Shown piece after piece: positions 1 through 8,727 of a stretch of DNA of 64,000 bases. A program made the position numbers and the translations under genes. This DNA is from Halodesulfurarchaeum sp. HSR-GB (GTDB lineage: Archaea > Halobacteriota > Halobacteria > Halobacteriales > Halobacteriaceae), in contig NZ_JAVKGN010000001.1 of NCBI RefSeq assembly GCF_031432215.1, forward strand, positions 1,727,421-1,791,420, in the 5' to 3' direction. The notes under the pieces were generated by a model, which was not told the DNA's origin, made no database searches, and saw only the letters and a program-made list of their open reading frames with translations. Numbering within the stretch: the stretch's first letter is position 1; each line of letters opens with the position of its first letter.

Positions 1-2049
1 GTCGTACCACAGCCGAACCTGAAGGGCCTCCGCCAGCTCACCGTCGCCGGTGATAATCGTCTCCTCGGGTTCGACAGTGACGGTGGTCGTGTCCGTGTCC
101 GTCTCACCTCGATCGTCGTCGACGGTCAACGCGAAGGTCAGCGTCGCTGGTTCGTCCAGCGGCGGAGCGGTGAACGTCGGCGTCTCGCTGTTCGAACCAG
201 AGAGGGACACCGTCGGGCCGCCAGTCTGTGACCAGGCATAGAGCAGCGCGTCACCGTCCGGATCACTCGACCCGGACCCATCCAGCTGGACAGTCGTTCC
301 TTCTTCGACGGTCTGGCTTGCTCCGGCATCGGCCACGGGCGGGTTGTTTTCAGCCGCCGCGGGTTGCACCGCGATCGAGACCGTGTCGGTGTCGCTCCCG
401 CCGCGCCCGTCCTCGACGGTCAACTCGAAGGTGAGTGTCGTCGATTCCGTCACGTCGGGTGCAGTGAAGGAGGGAGTCGAACTTGACGTGTCCGAAAGTG
501 TCACCGTCGGGCCGCCAGTCTGACTCCAGCTGTAGGTAATGTCGTCGCCATCAGCGTCACTCGATCCAGTGCCGTCGAGATCAACGGACGCACCCTCGTC
601 AACAGTCTGGTTCGGTCCCGCATCCGCGACTGGCGGGTTGTTCGGCCCGGCCTCCTGGAGGCGGCTCTCGAACTCTTCGAGGGATTCGGCCGCCACAAAG
701 GCCGTTTCCAGCGTGGTCGATTCGCCAGGTCCCAGAGCACCGAGGTCGTAGCGAAGGGCCAACCCAACGTCCGCACCCCCCGTGTCGGGGAACTGGGCAT
801 CGTCGTTCAACGTGGCGCCGGTGTAGACCTTGTTGTACGTGGAGCTGTAGTAATCCAGGTCGTGAGCTGTCGAAAGCTGGTCGGCGGTGAATCCCAGATA
901 GAGATCGTTGTCGCCGATCACGTTCTGTTCGTTCTGTGTGATGTACTCCAGCCCGCGATCATCGTCACGGACGTAGTTGCCGACTTCGCCGGACGGCGAG
1001 CCAATATCGTAATCGACGTACTGGGTCCACTGGAGGTCAGTGATGGTCTCGCTGCCCGATCGGTTCTCGAACTCGTAGTCGACGTCGACAACCGGTTCGT
1101 CCGCGCGCAAGGAGACAGTCCGGTGGACTCGAACCGTTGTTCCGCCGAGGTCCATCTCCACGATCCCGGTGTACTCCGTTCCGGGAGAGCCGCTGGCAGG
1201 CAAGGAGGTGATGACTGGGCCACCATCAGCCGATGGCGCGACGTTGCCGTCCCCGTCCTGCAACGCGTAGTATTCCAGGTACAGCGTATCGATGCTGTCG
1301 TCTGCGCCCGGATCAACGTTCCCGCCAGGAGTTCCCGAGAACGAGTAGAACCAGTCATTGTCCGAGGCCCCACCGTTTGCTTCCGCGCCGCCAGCAGAAC
1401 CGGAATCGAACTCCCCGACAGTCACCTCGTAGATGCCGTTATCGAGGAGAACGTCCGTCGGAGTGTCGTCCTCGTCCGGGTCGGAACGTTCGGGCTCGGT
1501 CAGCCCGTTCTCGGCGTTCTCTAGCAATTCGCCGGTCAGCCAGAGATACGCCGGATTCGAACAGGATGCGAGGTCGAAGGTCACCTCCCCAAAGTCACCC
1601 GGCTTTACGTCTTCGAGGGCGATAACCGGGGCCTCGAGGTCCTCGGGGACGTTAGCAAGCAGCCCACAAGGGTTCTGTCCGTCCCCGAGACCGCCCTCGG
1701 GGAACTGTTCTATCAGGGTCGCGTCCATGAACTGCTCCTGATCGTCGAAGACGAATTCGATCGGATAGCCGTTTTCCGGTCCTGGCAATGCCAGGTCAGG
1801 CTCCTCCGCTGGCCCAGGGCGGTGGACGTACTGGGCCGCAGCAGGCGACCCATCGTAGTAGTGTTCCTTCCAGCTGACCTTCAGATCGAGGTCCCCCGCG
1901 ACGAGTTGGTTGCCACTGAACTCCTCCTGGTCGCTAAACCAGGCCGATGTTCCCAGTCCCGCCCCCGCTGAGGCGGCACCGATGGTTCCGAGTGCGGCGA
2001 GCGCTTTGCGCCGCGAGATTTCGAACGTGTTGGGTTCGTCTTGTGACAT
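1..2049 (-). CDS. Secreted Tat/SipW-type surface protein with PKD-like repeats (3' end outside window)
   Basis: The reading frame stays open from an ATG at 2049 to the left edge (683 codons), so the C-terminus is missing. The N-terminus has a twin-arginine motif (SRRKALAALG, about residues 11-20), a hydrophobic Ala/Gly stretch and then AWFSDQEEFSGN, the pattern of SipW-dependent/camelysin-type signal peptides. A conserved block follows (KPGDFGEVTFDL). Two PKD/Ig-like repeats start at about residues 467 and 566, each with NPPVADAG and YxWSQTGGPTV. It is probably exported by Tat and displayed or secreted, perhaps as an adhesin or fibre component. A GGGTGAG ribosome site lies 9 bases before the start. 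The family assignment is firm; the function is inferred. Confidence 0.88.
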   Translation of the reverse strand, partial: MSQDEPNTFEISRRKALAALGTIGAASAGAGLGTSAWFSDQEEFSGNQLVAGDLDLKVSWKEHYYDGSPAAAQYVHRPGPAEEPDLALPGPENGYPIEFVFDDQEQFMDATLIEQFPEGGLGDGQNPCGLLANVPEDLEAPVIALEDVKPGDFGEVTFDLASCSNPAYLWLTGELLENAENGLTEPERSDPDEDDTPTDVLLDNGIYEVTVGEFDSGSAGGAEANGGASDNDWFYSFSGTPGGNVDPGADDSIDTLYLEYYALQDGDGNVAPSADGGPVITSLPASGSPGTEYTGIVEMDLGGTTVRVHRTVSLRADEPVVDVDYEFENRSGSETITDLQWTQYVDYDIGSPSGEVGNYVRDDDRGLEYITQNEQNVIGDNDLYLGFTADQLSTAHDLDYYSSTYNKVYTGATLNDDAQFPDTGGADVGLALRYDLGALGPGESTTLETAFVAAESLEEFESRLQEAGPNNPPVADAGPNQTVDEGASVDLDGTGSSDADGDDITYSWSQTGGPTVTLSDTSSSTPSFTAPDVTESTTLTFELTVEDGRGGSDTDTVSIAVQPAAAENNPPVADAGASQTVEEGTTVQLDGSGSSDPDGDALLYAWSQTGGPTVSLSGSNSETPTFTAPPLDEPATLTFALTVDDDRGETDTDTTTVTVEPEETIITGDGELAEALQVRLWYD

Positions 2050-2210: not shown

Positions 2211-2232
2211 AAAAAAAAGCCCGCCGAGGGGC
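2211..2232 (-). terminator. Hairpin plus T-run terminator
   Basis: Read on the minus strand, a GCCC/GGGC stem with a six-base loop (2219-2232) is followed directly by eight T (2211-2218). It lies about 30 bases past the TGA of the decayed camelysin-like gene and before the surface-protein gene, which suits an archaeal T-tract terminator. Confidence 0.5.
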
Positions 2233-2261
2233 AATCGGTAGTTCGGTGCGAATTCGCCTGC

Positions 2262-3023
2262 TCAGCCCACGATCGGTTCCGTTCCGTTTTCGTCGCTTTC
2301 GTTGCCGTTGGACACGTTTTCGTCGACTTCCATCGGCAGTCCCGCCCCCGTCGTTATGGCGGGCCTGTTCGGTGTAGAAGCTCAGATCGGACTCCACGGA
2401 GTCGCTCTGAATCTCGTTGCCGTGGTCGACCGGGACCCACCACTCGAAGCCGATGAATGCCGTGTCGGAGTTGGTTAAGGGCTGTCGGCCATCCGACCCG
2501 AGGTCGCCATCGAGTTCGGCACCCCATTGACATCCTCCCCGCCCTGAAGGGACGGGGATTCCGCTTGCTATCCGTCACGGAGCGACCCGGTGATGATCTC
2601 CGTGTCCGTCTCGGAGTCAAATAGGTTGTTCCCGTCGTCGTCGTAGAACACCGAACCCTGCACGGTGTCGGGTAGCTCAACGGCTGCGTCTTCGAGGCTG
2701 TCCCCATCCGCAGTGCTTCCCATCTCGTCGGCCGGCCCGGTCTCGTCCTCGTCCGCTCCTTCGGGCTCGGTGGCACCGTTTTCGGCCCAGTCAACGTTCA
2801 TCGTGTTCGCCCAGACGTAGCCCGGGTTATCACACAGATGGAGGCTGAAGGTGACCTCCCCGAAGTCCCCCGGCTTCAGATCGCCGATGTCAATGAGGGG
2901 TGCCGCGACCGCGTCCGGATCGGGGGTAATTGGCCCCTTACCACCCGCATCAAGTATACGGCGATCGGGGAAGGGGCCAATTTCAGAAGTAAACGAATCG
3001 ATACCAAAGGACATCCCCATCAA
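2262..3023 (-). pseudogene. Decayed camelysin/SipW-type surface protein, interrupted by an IS end
   Basis: This is a paralogue of the protein starting at 2049. The first piece (3023-2570) keeps the family block IGDLKPGDFGEVTFSL and the segment ending TGSLRD, but has no signal peptide and begins with unrelated residues. It stops in a short transposon-end sequence at 2527-2572. Beyond that insert the reading resumes with WGAELDGDLGSDG, IGFEWWVPVDHGNE and FYTEQARHND, typical of the C-terminus of this family. A second lesion, a frameshift in a C-run near 2345, separates this from an acidic tail (NESDENGTEPIVG) ending with TGA at 2262-2264. The three lesions make it almost certainly non-functional. 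Confidence 0.8.
2527..2572 (-). mobile_element. Solo IS200/IS605-type end remnant
   Basis: A hairpin CCCCGCCC-TGAA-GGGACGGGG (2537-2557, one bulged base) sits inside a sequence typical of right ends of haloarchaeal IS605/IS1341 elements. It breaks the camelysin-like frame just after GSLRD. No transposase or TnpB is present here, so this is a relic or a minimal mobilised end. Confidence 0.6.
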
Positions 3024-3095
3024 TTATAGATCTATGCTACCGAGTAGTGGCCCCGAATTCTGGGGTTGGAACACCGCCAGTCGGAGGTGGGAAGC

Positions 3096-3647
3096 GTGAG
3101 CGTCGTCGATCACGTCCCCGCGATCTCGCGAGGGAACCGCCTGCCCGAACCGGAGATCCACGACGTCCTCAGAAACGAGCGCCGACGGGCAGCGTTGCAG
3201 TGTCTCCGTGAGCGCGCCGGCGAGGCCCACATCAACGAATTGACGAACGCGATCGTCCATCGCGAGGCCGGCCCGGAAACCGACACCAAGAGCCTCAAAC
3301 AGAGTGTGTACAGCTCGTTACACCAGACCCACATTCCGAAACTCGAGGCCGCAGACGTGGTAGCCTACGACGAGGACGCGAACGTCGTTCGGCTGACCAC
3401 GAACTCCAGAGAGGTCGATCGGTACTTCCGTCTCCGACCGGCCCACGGCATCTCCTGGGGGGAGTACTACCAGCTTTTCGCCGTGACGAGTCTGCTCGTG
3501 ACACTACTCGTCGAAATTGAAGTCGGTGTCTTCGCCGCGATAGACCCGCTGCCAGTTCTCACCCTCGCGCTCGTGGTTCTGGCGCTCTCGGTCGGGTATC
3601 AACTCTGGACCCGACGCTGGATCTACGTCCGAAGTCTCTTCTCCTAG
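3096..3647 (+). CDS. DUF7344-type winged-helix membrane regulator
   Basis: This 183-residue protein has an N-terminal winged-helix-like DUF7344 domain (about residues 15-100; VLRNERRRAALQCL, then SVYSSLHQTHIPKLEAADVV) and two hydrophobic segments near the C-terminus. It probably acts as a membrane-linked transcription regulator. I chose the GTG at 3096 because GGAGGTGG lies just upstream (3083-3090); a TTG at 3066 would add ten residues. It is transcribed away from the decayed surface-protein gene and meets the next gene tail to tail with a 4-base overlap. DUF7344 proteins often sit beside secreted-protein or TA loci; the target is unknown. Confidence 0.8.
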   Translation: MSVVDHVPAISRGNRLPEPEIHDVLRNERRRAALQCLRERAGEAHINELTNAIVHREAGPETDTKSLKQSVYSSLHQTHIPKLEAADVVAYDEDANVVRLTTNSREVDRYFRLRPAHGISWGEYYQLFAVTSLLVTLLVEIEVGVFAAIDPLPVLTLALVVLALSVGYQLWTRRWIYVRSLFS

Positions 3648-4441
3648 GCCGCCAGTTTGGCTGCCGATGCTCGAAGTTCGAACAGCCGCCGGTTGCAGTC
3701 CTCGCACGTTCCAACCACGACTTCGACCGTATCACAGCAGGTTTCGACGGTCTCCTGGCCGAGAGCCACACGCCCGTCACAGTACGGGCACCATTCGAGC
3801 CAGAGCCGGAGCCCACCCAGGACGGCCGTCCGTTCATCGAAATTAAACGTCTCCCAACCGTCGTATCGCGCTTCGAGTTCCTGCGCGGCGGCCGCATCAG
3901 CGATGAAGACGCCCCGTGAGTCCCACCGGGCGATCTGAACGTCGCCTACTGCGGCAATTACTTTCTCGCCCGTCGAGTCGACGCTGGCCTGGGCAAGCTG
4001 TTCGGTTTCGAGCCCACCGATTCGTTCTAACAGGGAATCGTCCGTCGCGCCGCGGAGGTCCTGGACACGGGCCCGCCAGGCCTGCTGGAACTCCGGATCG
4101 ATGTAAAGATCGCCCTCTCCCTCGTGAAGAGCCCCGGATTCGAGCAGGACGGATTCGATGGCCGGCCCGCGACCATCCGTCGCCTTTGGCTGGTGGCCGA
4201 ACCACCGGAGCACGTTCGAGGGGAGATATCGTTTGGTAAGTGTCGGTGTCCCGGGAATCAGATACCCTCTGAAGTAAATCGAGAGCAGCCCGATTATGAA
4301 CACGATGGCGGCAGCCAGTAAATTGGCCGTGGCCACGAGGCCGGTCGCAAGGACCGTCAGGACGAGATTGAGAACGGTACACTTCGAGCAGCGGTTCGCG
4401 CCAGTGTATCGCGGGTTCTGATACGGCGAGAGAAGCGCCAT
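3644..4441 (-). CDS. Membrane protein with C-terminal zinc ribbon
   Basis: This 265-residue protein has two adjacent hydrophobic segments at about residues 23-60, a soluble acidic middle, and a C-terminal putative zinc site: CPYC at 218-221 and CEDC at 246-249, with a CC pair between. A further CSKC pair lies at residues 18-21. I do not recognise a named family with confidence. It converges with the upstream regulator (4-base overlap) and is divergent from the DUF7344 gene at 4635. A membrane-anchored sensor or scaffold is plausible; no catalytic motif is seen. Confidence 0.75.
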   Translation of the reverse strand: MALLSPYQNPRYTGANRCSKCTVLNLVLTVLATGLVATANLLAAAIVFIIGLLSIYFRGYLIPGTPTLTKRYLPSNVLRWFGHQPKATDGRGPAIESVLLESGALHEGEGDLYIDPEFQQAWRARVQDLRGATDDSLLERIGGLETEQLAQASVDSTGEKVIAAVGDVQIARWDSRGVFIADAAAAQELEARYDGWETFNFDERTAVLGGLRLWLEWCPYCDGRVALGQETVETCCDTVEVVVGTCEDCNRRLFELRASAAKLAA

Positions 4442-4634
4442 TGTATGAGCGAGTACCGCCCGGTCGACCTTTGTAATCGATTCGCTAAACGGTCGGTAGG
4501 ATCACAGAAACGCGAGGAACTGATCGTTATGGCCCGCCATTCGAATGGATCAAACGGCTCGGCTTCGACATAGGTCATCGTTAACACGGACAGGGAATTG
4601 TTTACTAACAAATAGGGGGCCGAATGGCTGGGTA

Positions 4635-5183
4635 ATGCCAACAATTACGTCTCGGGCGATGGACCCGGACACTGCCTTTTCGCTTCTGAGCAACCAGCGG
4701 CGACGGCACGTGTTGTGTCTTTTGGCCGAACGGGACGAGGAGGTCGCCCTGAGCGAGATCGCCAGGGAGATCGCCGCGAAGATGAACGACGTCGAGCCGG
4801 AGGGCGTCGAGGAGGGAGCCTATCGAAGCGTCTACGTCGCACTGTATCAGAACCACGTCCCGCGGCTGGCCGAGGCCGGAGTACTCGAATACGATGCCGA
4901 GGAACGAACGGCCCGGATTGCCAAGAATCAGCGGACCTGGGAGCTGTTGCAGTACGCCGGGGTCGATTGTGAGCAATCGTGGGAGCACGAGTATCTCCTC
5001 GCAGCCGTCGCGACCATACTCGCTGCACCGCTCCCGCTTTTCCTTCCGGACGGAATCGTTCAGAAGTGGTGGATGTTTCCCGTTCTCGTGTTGATCGCCG
5101 CACTCGCCCTGATCGGTGGCGCACAGTACACTGCCTCGTACAAACCGTCAGTATCGGACTGTCACTCGCTGGTAGAGTCGTAA
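4635..5183 (+). CDS. DUF7344-type winged-helix membrane regulator
   Basis: This 182-residue protein carries a DUF7344 domain (LLSNQRRRHVLCLLAERDEEVALSEIA as a core, then SVYVALYQNHVPRLAEAGVLEYD) followed by two hydrophobic C-terminal segments, the same layout as the regulator at 3096. The ATG at 4635 is preferred over an upstream in-frame ATG at 4545, whose extra residues are basic and unlike the family; an ATG at 4659 is also possible. It lies next to, and converges with, the signal-peptidase operon ending at 5223, so it may regulate surface-protein export. That link is inference from position. Confidence 0.82.
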   Translation: MPTITSRAMDPDTAFSLLSNQRRRHVLCLLAERDEEVALSEIAREIAAKMNDVEPEGVEEGAYRSVYVALYQNHVPRLAEAGVLEYDAEERTARIAKNQRTWELLQYAGVDCEQSWEHEYLLAAVATILAAPLPLFLPDGIVQKWWMFPVLVLIAALALIGGAQYTASYKPSVSDCHSLVES

Positions 5184-5222: not shown

Positions 5223-6830
5223 CTAGTCGGCCGTCTCGTTCTGGTAAGCGTTTGTCACGGTTGATTCGGCTGCTGTGGGCTCCGTAGCCGTCAGTTCAGT
5301 GGTCGACTCAGTGTCCGTCGAGTCGTCGTCCCCGTCCTCCGCTTCGCTTTCCTCGTTCTCAACATCTTCCGCACCCTCATCGCCCTCGTCGTCCTCGTCA
5401 CCCTCCTCGTCCGCCGCTTCTGCATCTTCGTCATCGCTCTCGTCGTCCTCGTCACCCTCCTCGTCCGCCGCTTCTGCATCTTCGTCATCGCTCTCGTCGT
5501 CCTCGTCACCCTCCTCGTCCGCCGCTTCTGCATCTTCGTCATCGCCCTCGTCGTCCTCGTCACCCTCCTCGTCCGCCGCTTCTGCATCTTCGTCATCGCT
5601 CTCGTCGTCTTCGTCACCCTCCTCGTCCGCTGCATCCCCCTCAGTTTCAGCGTCGTCGCTATTCGCCACATCATCGGACTCATTAGCGTCGTCCTCACTG
5701 CTTTCGGCGTCGTTACCATCCTCGCCATCTACCTCATCATCTGAATCACTCTCCGTATCGCTCCCGTCCGGTCCCCGATCCGACTCCGGACCGTCTGTCG
5801 TGGTGTCGGTGGTCGGCCCGTCAGATTCGTTCTCGGCCGAATCAGGCTCAGTCGGTGTCTCGGTCGACGTATCTTCCACGGGCGTCGGGTCGCTCCCGGT
5901 CTCGTTCTCGACGGTCTCGTTCGTGTCGTCAGTCGTTTCAGTTGTCTCGTTACCGCTCTCGACCACATCGTCGGTCCCATTGGCCCCAGGCGTCTCGTCC
6001 GTGATGTTGTCGTCAGTGTCGGTGGGGTCGGTGTCTTCGGTCTGGTTCGTGTCCGCGGTTTCATTCACCGGGTCATCGTCTTCGGCCGGGCTGGCACCCG
6101 TCCCGTTTGTTTCCGCAGGCGCAGTGGATTCGTTTTCGGTCCCGTCTGCTGGCTGGCTCGAGCTGGACCCGGAGCGATCATTCCGATCGTCGTCGGCACC
6201 ATCGTCCCCGGACGCGTCGGAATCGGACTGGGAGATCGACCCGGTTTCGTTCTCCTCGGTCTCCGCAGTTCCGTTCGGCCCAGCCGTGGAATTCGTGTCG
6301 TTGCTGACGGTGTCATTCGATCCTCCGTCCTGGATTCCCGTGTCTTCGGTTCCACTCTCGTCCGGGCCCTGCACGTCGACGGTCAGGAGCGCGGATTCGT
6401 TCATCGCCGACGCGTTTTCCGTGGTGTTGGTCGAGTCGAAGACTCCAAACGGGCTGAACCCGGGGACTGTCGCCTTCAGGACGGCCCGGTCGGACTCGGT
6501 CCCCGGGTCGACGACACCCGTCTCCAACAGCGTCCAGGTCCCGTTTTTCATGTGACCGATCAACAGTGTCTCGGGATCCTCGAACCCTGGTGGAAGCTTG
6601 ACGAACAGGTCATAGCCCCCGTCACTGCGGTTTTCGGCCCAGGTGTCCACCGAGCCGTCGATATTGCGCTGCTGGACGGTCAGGGTTGCGTTCACGCTTT
6701 CCTCGTCGCTAAACAGGGCGACCGTCTGGGCCGGGCGATCGTCGAATGCAGCGCTCGCTGCGAACGGGGCCCCGACGAGCGCGATCACGACGATCACCGT
6801 GCCACCGATCGAACTCCAGGTAGTAGTCAT
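5223..6830 (-). CDS. Secreted highly acidic repeat protein (SipW-operon cargo)
   Basis: This 535-residue protein has an N-terminal hydrophobic signal (about residues 8-30) followed by ALFSDEESVNATLTV, which resembles the SipW-type cleavage context. A folded domain spans about residues 30-140 (DLFVKLPPGFEDPETLLIGH). The rest is low complexity: Thr/Ser/Asn-rich with many N-x-T/S sequons, then a block of 18-residue Asp/Glu-rich repeats. It is the last gene of an operon, overlapping the signal peptidase start by 4 bases. It is probably an exported, heavily glycosylated stalk or matrix protein. No C-terminal membrane anchor is seen. Function is inferred. Confidence 0.82.
   Translation of the reverse strand: MTTTWSSIGGTVIVVIALVGAPFAASAAFDDRPAQTVALFSDEESVNATLTVQQRNIDGSVDTWAENRSDGGYDLFVKLPPGFEDPETLLIGHMKNGTWTLLETGVVDPGTESDRAVLKATVPGFSPFGVFDSTNTTENASAMNESALLTVDVQGPDESGTEDTGIQDGGSNDTVSNDTNSTAGPNGTAETEENETGSISQSDSDASGDDGADDDRNDRSGSSSSQPADGTENESTAPAETNGTGASPAEDDDPVNETADTNQTEDTDPTDTDDNITDETPGANGTDDVVESGNETTETTDDTNETVENETGSDPTPVEDTSTETPTEPDSAENESDGPTTDTTTDGPESDRGPDGSDTESDSDDEVDGEDGNDAESSEDDANESDDVANSDDAETEGDAADEEGDEDDESDDEDAEAADEEGDEDDEGDDEDAEAADEEGDEDDESDDEDAEAADEEGDEDDESDDEDAEAADEEGDEDDEGDEGAEDVENEESEAEDGDDDSTDTESTTELTATEPTAAESTVTNAYQNETAD
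5389..5632 (-). repeat. 54-bp tandem repeats encoding 18-residue acidic units
   Basis: Four full 54-base copies begin at 5407, 5461, 5515 and 5569, with partial copies on both sides. Each encodes ADEEGDEDDESDDEDAEA with a Ser/Gly change at one position. Base changes between copies are few, so the array is young or kept uniform, and copy number may vary between strains. Confidence 0.9.
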
Positions 6831-7750
6831 TGGTTCACCTCCCCATCAGGCTGGGGTTGGGCCGCCGGGTCGCCGGAGTCAGGCTCCTGGTTTGCCGGTT
6901 CGGCCTGCACCACCAGCATTGCAGCCAGCAGGATTCCACCAACCAGGGCGCCCACGGCGATCGCCGCGATCACTGGCTCCTGATTCTGATACGCGTAATG
7001 GGCCCCGAACCCACCTGCGCCAGCCAGGGCGGCCACGGCGACAAAGATCCACGACTGCGGGGCACTGTAGGTCGGCTGTTCGTCCGACTCGGTTGCCGAT
7101 TCGGGTTCCCGCTTTTCGGCCTCCTCGCGGCTCAAGGTGATGAACCGCCAGAACTCCGAGACCGCGAGTAGGAAGAGCGGAATCCCGACGAGGAGCAGGA
7201 ATCCCAGTTGGGTCTGAGCGAACTGGGCGACGTAGCCGATGAACGGGATCACGAACAGGTTATGCCCGTTTCCGGGGATGGAAACCGGGAGTTCCATCAC
7301 TTTCCCCCGCAGCGTTGAAGCCGGTGTGAGTGCAATATCGGCGTTCTCGTTGTTGTCCCCTTTCGTCTCGAAGACCAGCTCCCCATCCTGTTGCTGAATG
7401 TCGATCACGCGGTGGGTCGTCGGGGGACTCGTCTGACTCCCACCGTAGGTGATGACATCACCCACTTCGACAGCCGAGGCCGGCACCGCGTTCACGATGA
7501 CGACATCTCCCGGGCTGACGGCCGGCTCCATGCTGCCACTCAGCACCACGTAGCTCTGCTCGGCCCCGACGACCTGCGGGATAGCGAAGATGACAAAGGG
7601 GATGACGATGGCCAGCAGCACGACCAGCGCGAGGAGGTGAACTGCTTCGCGGGGCGTCGACGGAACGAGTTTGGCACGGAGGAATGCACCCAGCCGGGTG
7701 AGCCGTCCGGGCTCCGTCCCGTCCGCGGATTCCGTCTCTGACTCGCTCAT
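6827..7750 (-). CDS. SipW-like signal peptidase I (S26B type)
   Basis: This 307-residue integral membrane peptidase has a hydrophobic helix at about residues 40-60, then the catalytic serine in SGSMEP (Ser73), a histidine in THRV (His113) and an aspartate in GDNN (Asp132). That Ser/His/Asp set is the archaeal/ER-type arrangement and contains no catalytic lysine. More hydrophobic segments follow near residues 170-195 and 240-285. It overlaps both neighbours by 4 bases (ATGA), so it is co-translated with two proteins that carry SipW-type signals and is probably their dedicated peptidase. The peptidase call is firm; the substrate pairing is inference. Confidence 0.92.
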   Translation of the reverse strand: MSESETESADGTEPGRLTRLGAFLRAKLVPSTPREAVHLLALVVLLAIVIPFVIFAIPQVVGAEQSYVVLSGSMEPAVSPGDVVIVNAVPASAVEVGDVITYGGSQTSPPTTHRVIDIQQQDGELVFETKGDNNENADIALTPASTLRGKVMELPVSIPGNGHNLFVIPFIGYVAQFAQTQLGFLLLVGIPLFLLAVSEFWRFITLSREEAEKREPESATESDEQPTYSAPQSWIFVAVAALAGAGGFGAHYAYQNQEPVIAAIAVGALVGGILLAAMLVVQAEPANQEPDSGDPAAQPQPDGEVNQ

Positions 7751-8721
7751 TGGTCACACCCCGAGATGGATTCGAAACTGTTCGAACCCGCTTCGAGCTT
7801 GGCTGTCCAGCAGAAATTCGGGAAGGGCTCGCTGTTGGTGTGGTCGGTCCCCTCGAACCCGTTCCCCTGTTTCTGGAAGGTCTCATCGCCCTCGCCAACG
7901 GTGAGCGGCCCAGTATCCGGAACGTCCGCGAACACTTCCAGCGTCTGTCCGTACTTGAGTGCGATCGCCTGGACGGCTGTGGCGGAATCACCGAGGTCGT
8001 ACTCGAGTGTCGAACCGTCGATCGCCACCGAGGAGAAGTCCTCTACCTCCGCATTCGTTTCGCCGGCAAAGGCGACCCAGCTAATGTCTTTTTGTTCCGT
8101 GCCGCTCCCGGAATCATCCGAACAGCGCTCACACTCCCAGTTCGGTGCATTTGCCGCCGGATTCTGCAAGTGACGGCGTTGCACCGCGTGGAAATCGAAC
8201 CCAAATTCGATACCGTGTTCGCCCGCGACCGACTCGGTGAGCTCCCAGGCAATCGTGAGAGTCCAGGTCTCGCCGGGATTGAGCACCCGTCCGAATCGAT
8301 GCCCGGTTCCGTATCGCTCACGCTCCTCACGGAGCGTCCCGGATGAGAACTCTTCGAGGCGTGTTCCGTTTTCGCCACGCAGCGTGAATTCGATCTGAAT
8401 CTGTTCTTCGACGGGAAGACATCGAGGACATCCCGTCCGGAACCACAGCCACGCGGGATTGGAGTCCTCGGAGAGATCGATGATGATCTGTCGCTCGCCA
8501 CCATCACCCTCATTGCTGACGACCCCCAGGTCAGTCTCGGTTCCTTCGCCCTCCCAGGAGACGTCGAGGTCGAGTTCGCCGGCGCCAAACGTAACCCCCA
8601 GTTGCTCAGTGTCCGAGAACTCGGCCACGGTCCGTCCACCACCGGAGACGACCGCCCCCGAGGCCGCAGCGGCAAGCAGGAATTGCCGACGGGATACCCG
8701 CAGCCCGTCAGGTTCTGTCAT
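7747..8721 (-). CDS. Tat-type SipW-dependent surface protein
   Basis: This 324-residue protein begins with a twin-arginine signal (SRRQFLLAAAASGAV) followed by AEFSDTEQL, the SipW/camelysin pattern, then FGAGELDLDVSW like its relatives. The middle part holds CPRC and, further on, CERC, which could bind metal or form disulfides. The last part resembles a separate extracellular domain. The ATG at 8721 is chosen because GGGGTGAG lies just before it; a GTG at 8727 is possible. It is first in the operon and overlaps the signal peptidase. It may be a fibre or matrix subunit like TasA; that role is inferred from family resemblance. Confidence 0.83.
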   Translation of the reverse strand: MTEPDGLRVSRRQFLLAAAASGAVVSGGGRTVAEFSDTEQLGVTFGAGELDLDVSWEGEGTETDLGVVSNEGDGGERQIIIDLSEDSNPAWLWFRTGCPRCLPVEEQIQIEFTLRGENGTRLEEFSSGTLREERERYGTGHRFGRVLNPGETWTLTIAWELTESVAGEHGIEFGFDFHAVQRRHLQNPAANAPNWECERCSDDSGSGTEQKDISWVAFAGETNAEVEDFSSVAIDGSTLEYDLGDSATAVQAIALKYGQTLEVFADVPDTGPLTVGEGDETFQKQGNGFEGTDHTNSEPFPNFCWTAKLEAGSNSFESISGCDQ

Positions 8722-8727
8722 ACTCAC

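Follow-up and report, generated by a model that had tools for sequence, protein, structure and literature searches.

Genetic organization of the cluster

The window, which is the whole stretch of 64,000 nucleotides analysed from Halodesulfurarchaeum sp. HSR-GB (contig NZ_JAVKGN010000001.1, positions 1,727,421 to 1,791,420; contig coordinates are prefixed C1 below), begins within a gene cluster encoding TasA-like proteins and a SipW-like signal peptidase. The cluster probably specifies a haloarchaeal TasA/camelysin-type donor-strand fibre system, forming a matrix or a pilus, whose subunits would be exported by the twin-arginine translocation (Tat) pathway and processed by a dedicated SipW-like peptidase. 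Its features in the window are listed below.

7747..8727, minus strand: P0002, a Tat-signal protein with a TasA core and an extra C-terminal region; start codon GTG at 8727 or ATG at 8721.
6827..7750, minus strand: P0003, a SipW-like signal peptidase of the endoplasmic reticulum (ER) type (Ser-His-Asp) with a C-terminal extension.
5223..6830, minus strand: P0004, with a Sec-type signal, the donor-strand-like ALFSDEESVNATLTV, a small domain and an acidic low-complexity tail.
1..2049, minus strand: TasA-family subunit with a Tat and SipW-type signal and two inserted PKD domains (TIGR04088, 26.5 bits).
2224..3047, minus strand: decayed TasA-family paralogue, seen in three-frame translation.
3066..3647, plus strand: DUF7344 winged-helix-like regulator with hydrophobic C-terminal stretches (PF24035, E=1.2e-23).
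4545..5183, plus strand: DUF7344 regulator, second copy (PF24035, E=7.2e-25).

The original prediction described a Tat-type protein with a SipW-type signal, a SipW-like peptidase and an acidic repeat protein overlapping by 4 bases each, and the open reading frames and ATGA overlaps at 7747-7750 (P0002/P0003) and 6827-6830 (P0003/P0004) were confirmed. Two more proteins of the same type had been placed beside them. The one at 1-2049 is real, its gene running past the window edge to C1:1727076 and encoding 797 residues in full, whereas the one at 2224-3047 is decayed and interrupted by an insertion-sequence end. Both proposed DUF7344 regulators matched PF24035. Five further intact paralogues, one with a vWA domain, lie directly outside the window.

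Genome-wide, TIGR04088 (the SipW-cognate signal) gave seven matches over cut-off, all within C1:1717151-1736093; P0003 was the only TIGR02228 match over cut-off in the 2.25-Mb genome, and the three DUF7344 genes were found at C1:1715160, 1730579 and 1732097. All of these genes thus fall within C1:1715160-1736093 (21 kb). Because they share one region and the P0002-P0003-P0004 trio is also present in a locus of the same genus (L085), clustering by chance was ruled out.

Relationship of the paralogues to TasA

A profile, A2, was built from 19 relatives of the 1-2049 protein from named haloarchaeal loci. Searched against the PDB, it matched Bacillus subtilis TasA (5of1, E=3.4e-9; 8aur, E=4.7e-9) over positions 9-183 of 201, with the archaeal AbpX ranking next as a weak match (E=0.01). 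All six full-length paralogues of the strain fitted it end to end, first strand through last, with E values between 1.7e-25 and 2.2e-43 and with their inserts falling between core strands; the 1-2049 protein matched with E=1.7e-25, its core split around the insert. On sequence grounds, the paralogues are TasA/camelysin-family proteins. The TasA-like reading had initially been guessed from motifs, and it now has a profile match to 5of1 and 8aur across the whole domain, together with a peptidase beside the SipW-type signals.

Structure prediction, which had been proposed as the check for a TasA fold, pointed the same way. The AlphaFold2 model of one relative, from a Halodesulfurarchaeum metagenome-assembled genome (L121), was mostly beta with a predicted template modelling score (pTM) of 0.71, and the TasA fibre 8aur was its sole Foldseek match in the PDB below 1e-3 (E=2.6e-4, probability 1.00). 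The model of P0002, the protein at 7747, also matched the TasA fibre (see below).

The signal and first mature strand of the paralogues are near-identical (NTFEISRRKxLAALGTIGAASAGAGLGTSAWFSDxE), with bodies at 38-52% identity, and the post-cleavage motif FSD.E....N...AG.LDL is conserved both in the A2 alignment and in the strain's own paralogues. PF12389 bears the Pfam title camelysin metallo-endopeptidase, and the proteins could accordingly be read as secreted metallo-endopeptidases instead of structural proteins. We regard this as almost certainly wrong, since most of the Pfam match covers the signal and the first strand, the A2 alignment shows no conserved HExxH-like metal motif, and TasA itself is structural.

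P0002 as a candidate minor subunit

The N-terminus of P0002 carries the Tat motif SRRQFLL followed by AEFSDTEQ...AGELDLDV. In the protein search, P0002 was sub-threshold for both TIGR04088 and camelysin PF12389; in the genome search it scored 20.7 bits for TIGR04088, over the cut-off of 19. It matched the A2 profile with E=1.5e-9, and the P0002 family was joined to the TasA-like family by hhalign profile-profile comparison (E=7e-20). P0002 is a distant paralogue of the TasA-like subunits and a candidate minor or accessory fibre subunit.

A sequence search with P0002 against the PDB gave no match. Foldseek of its model, which is of moderate quality (pTM 0.54), placed the CanA cannulae on top (E=3e-4), with the TasA fibre 8aur just behind (E=3.8e-4), and also matched AbpA 7ueg (weak, E=5e-3) and chaperone-usher pilins. 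The filaments might therefore be cannula-like tubes or intercellular networks of the Pyrodictium CanA type and not TasA-like biofilm fibres, as the top rank of CanA and the AbpA match would favour. We consider this very unlikely, because the sequence profile finds TasA and not CanA, and the P0002 model is only moderate.

The SipW-like peptidase and its linkage to SipW-type signals

P0003 scored 105.8 bits against TIGR02228 (cut-off 51.85) and 98.5 bits against the Bacillus SipW model NF046067, below the cut-off of 190; by these scores it is SipW-like, not an equivalog of Bacillus SipW. The Ser, His and Asp residues S73, H113, D132 and D138 do not vary among aligned relatives, and the P0003 profile matched human SEC11A/C. 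In the peptidase tree, a clade of proteins of about 390 residues was split off with 100/100 support and Sec11 sat on a very long branch, while the deeper SipW-like branches were unresolved.

In a survey of 145 Halobacteriales genomes, with the SipW-like peptidase counted at >=90 bits, the peptidase was found in 51 genomes and SipW-cognate signals in 49. Signals were present in 45/51 genomes with the peptidase versus 4/94 of the others (Fisher p=4e-26), and the four signal-only genomes had a lower-scoring peptidase match near the signal gene. Strong neighbours with Tat and SipW-type signals flanked all 40 fetched SipW-like loci and none of the 20 loci of the ~390-residue clade; the linkage of peptidase and substrate also held in 41/41 named haloarchaeal loci. 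Larger loci usually carry, in order, several TasA-like genes, a gene for a Tat protein of about 250 residues, a P0002-like gene, the peptidase gene and a P0004-like gene. Halodesulfurarchaeum differs from this order in having its TasA-like genes downstream.

Two observations speak for a peptidase that is not dedicated, with Sec11 also cutting the precursors or many other Tat proteins being substrates of the SipW-like enzyme: the genome has a second, divergent signal peptidase candidate (C1:564311), and the catalytic triad is common to SipW-like enzymes and Sec11. The tight co-occurrence and adjacency, the translational coupling, and the location of all seven SipW-type signals of the genome inside the cluster argue against it, and we judge it improbable.

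The ~390-residue clade (control loci L086-L105) scored about 60-70 bits for TIGR02228. It was flanked by weaker matches in 11/20 loci, where several proteins begin NRRxVLxxxGTxxxGxGAAxGxGAFS, and perhaps represents a parallel Tat-plus-peptidase system.

Export and predicted cleavage

All subunits of the strain carry SRRK or SRRQFLL ahead of the hydrophobic stretch. By a simple test for RR, twin arginines were found in 131/139 haloarchaeal SipW-type proteins versus 10/80 from bacteria and other archaea. The subunits apparently leave the cell via Tat, judging from these signals. Haloarchaea send many proteins through Tat, so its use alone is unsurprising. A dedicated TatA was rejected as part of the system: a TatA gene lay near 3 of about 85 loci, little above the chance expectation for genomes with one or two TatA genes. 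These three haloarchaeal cases, which could be due to chance, are L187 14299-14553, L129 1017-1253 and L084 2676-2945, the Halorientalis marina megaplasmid being among them.

The cleavage site was placed by alignment to TasA, which predicts a cut directly following the Ala of GTxA. At the predicted site, haloarchaeal signals have F or Y at P2' in 177/218 and mostly Y/F/L/W at P1'. In TasA, Phe at P2' goes with poor LepB cleavage and SipW processing, and Trp at P2 was identified as the block to LepB (PMC10269814). According to a review, it had not been demonstrated that archaeal signal peptidase I cleaves Tat signals (PMC4343526).

P0004, a candidate TapA-like protein

In P0004, a Sec-type signal is followed by ALFSDEESVNATLTV and a small domain, after which comes a long acidic repeat tail. 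The gene next after the SipW-like peptidase gene was surveyed at 38 loci, with 496 controls for the motif. A gene lay 3' of the peptidase gene on the same strand in 34/38 loci and abutted or overlapped it in 26. The SipW/donor-strand motif was found in 23/34 downstream genes versus 18/496 controls, a low-complexity tail in 31/34, and twin arginines were usually missing. In B. subtilis, residues 44-57 of mature TapA are by themselves enough for biofilms to form, and TapA begins with a segment similar to the TasA donor strand (PMC9674648, PMC10151520). Because of the motif, the tail and the TapA precedent, a TapA-like role was proposed for the downstream protein, making P0004 a candidate initiator or tether.

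The acidic tail of P0004 is built at window 5380-5640 from in-frame tandem repeats (EEGDEDDESDDEDAEAAD units), and its length varies relative to that in a same-genus relative (535 versus 440 residues).

Proposed assembly and comparison with known systems

According to the fibre model, seven intact TasA-core proteins would be exported already folded through Tat, some of them displaying inserted adhesion-type domains (vWA, two PKDs). Cutting by the SipW-like peptidase would take place between the Ala of G-T-x-A and an aromatic pair (W/Y-F-S-D) and so free the N-terminal strand FSDxExxxxNxxxAGxLDL, which would enter the next subunit; the subunits would then chain by donor-strand exchange, for which TasA is the precedent (PMC9674648). 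In this scheme P0002, with its extra domain, would act as a minor subunit. P0004 would leave by Sec, and its gene is translationally coupled to that of the peptidase; with the same donor-strand-like start and a disordered acidic tail, it may serve, like TapA, as initiator or tether of the fibre. The DUF7344 proteins may regulate the cluster. The resulting fibres may function in biofilms. The specific combination of pre-folded Tat subunits, a first signal peptidase assignable to haloarchaeal Tat substrates and a Sec-exported nucleator or tether bearing a donor strand on a disordered acidic tail is put forward tentatively, the balance leaning against all of it being right.

The large and variable inserts, the presence of vWA and PKD domains and subunit sizes of 470-800 residues would also suit lone surface-attached or secreted adhesins or binding proteins, which would have the TasA domain and SipW processing and form no polymer. 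This reading is unlikely, if less so than the alternatives above: the post-cleavage strand is near-identical in all paralogues, the best fold match is the polymerised form 8aur, which is also among the top matches of the P0002 model, and the P0004-like partner shares the strand motif.

Several points weigh against a TasA-like fibre. Large inserts diluted a profile made only from the strain's own paralogues, which matched no PDB entry, so the TasA link runs via the relatives. The subunit model was taken from the related metagenome-assembled genome, with a predicted local distance difference test (pLDDT) score of 70 and a template modelling score of 0.41 to 8aur. TasA is a 26-kDa protein, and subunits of 470-800 residues with big inserts differ from it and might fail to pack into a fibre. 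In P0004, the motif lies ~17 residues past a plausible earlier cleavage site (AASA-AFDD) and therefore may miss the mature N-terminus, which weakens the TapA-like proposal in this genus. DUF7344 is widespread in haloarchaea, and its link to the cluster is unspecific outside this genome.

The closest known counterparts of the predicted fibre system are the tapA-sipW-tasA operon of B. subtilis and sipW-calY of B. cereus, where a dedicated ER-type peptidase also stands beside TasA-fold proteins. The Bacillus operons and the haloarchaeal locus share the FxD..(N)..AGxLDL post-cleavage strand, a stop/start overlap with the peptidase gene and possibly an accessory protein whose start is donor-strand-like. 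The haloarchaeal locus differs in apparently exporting its subunits by Tat and not by Sec, in its seven intact paralogues, some with vWA or PKD inserts, in its haloarchaeal regulators and in its long disordered acidic accessory protein; the fibre itself is a prediction here. The archaeal bundling pili AbpA/AbpX of Pyrobaculum and relatives have an archaeal TasA-type beta-sandwich, to which the weak AbpX sequence match and AbpA fold match correspond, whereas the haloarchaeal proteins are nearer to bacterial TasA by profile, have predicted Tat export and form a multi-paralogue cluster. Haloferax volcanii Sec11a and Sec11b are Ser/His/Asp type I signal peptidases like P0003, but general enzymes.

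TasA homologues are generally known in archaea (PMC10151520, PMC10903470). A search of open-access papers for SipW or TasA together with haloarchaea uncovered no study of a haloarchaeal TasA/SipW system. The NCBI label of TIGR04088, "SipW-dependent-type signal peptide-containing protein", is given to homologous haloarchaeal proteins and names the signal only, without fibre, Tat or operon context. In RefSeq, relatives bear either this label or "vWA domain-containing", the peptidase is annotated as "signal peptidase I", and the remaining genes are "hypothetical". Hlac_3146 of Halorubrum lacusprofundi, described as "TAT signal; no identifiable domains", was 2-3 times up in biofilm (PMC5118699); it is possibly related to the TasA-like family.

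If the fibre model is right, haloarchaea possess a version of the TasA/SipW biofilm fibre system that relies on another export route, and surface fibres other than type IV pili are to be expected in these organisms. The linked substrates of the P0003-type peptidase nearly all bear Tat signals. The control genome of H. volcanii had no TIGR02228 match at E<=1e-10, and this species, being without a strong match, would offer a clean host for the system. The system is present in some Haloferax or Halorubrum species, H. mucosum (L138) being an example.

Regulators and mobile elements

The idea that DUF7344 generally marks the system was rejected, as most haloarchaea carry it in abundance (1-38 per genome) and it was found at similar frequency beside the ~390-residue control clade (15/20) and SipW-like loci (32/40). 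An upstream scan for sigma-type promoters, a type of scan ill-suited to archaea, gave no match. Between the two DUF7344 genes, window 3644-4441 encodes a membrane protein that has a zinc-ribbon-like cluster of Cys residues at its C-terminus and matches no Pfam family; L085 has a gene of equal length (265 residues) at the matching position.

In the decayed paralogue at 2224-3047, the KPGD block and the C-terminal NEIQSDSV..FYTEQARHNDG block lie in different frames with the insertion-sequence end between them. This end, CATCCTCCCCGCCCTGAAGGG, was located at window 2521-2580. Elsewhere, a TnpB-like gene sits amid intact paralogues (L013 14920-16170). IS200/IS605-type elements appear to have invaded the cluster. 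On haloarchaeal megaplasmids, related peptidases were found in 12 plasmid records and TasA-like proteins in 9, and for this reason the fibre-type system may transfer between species.

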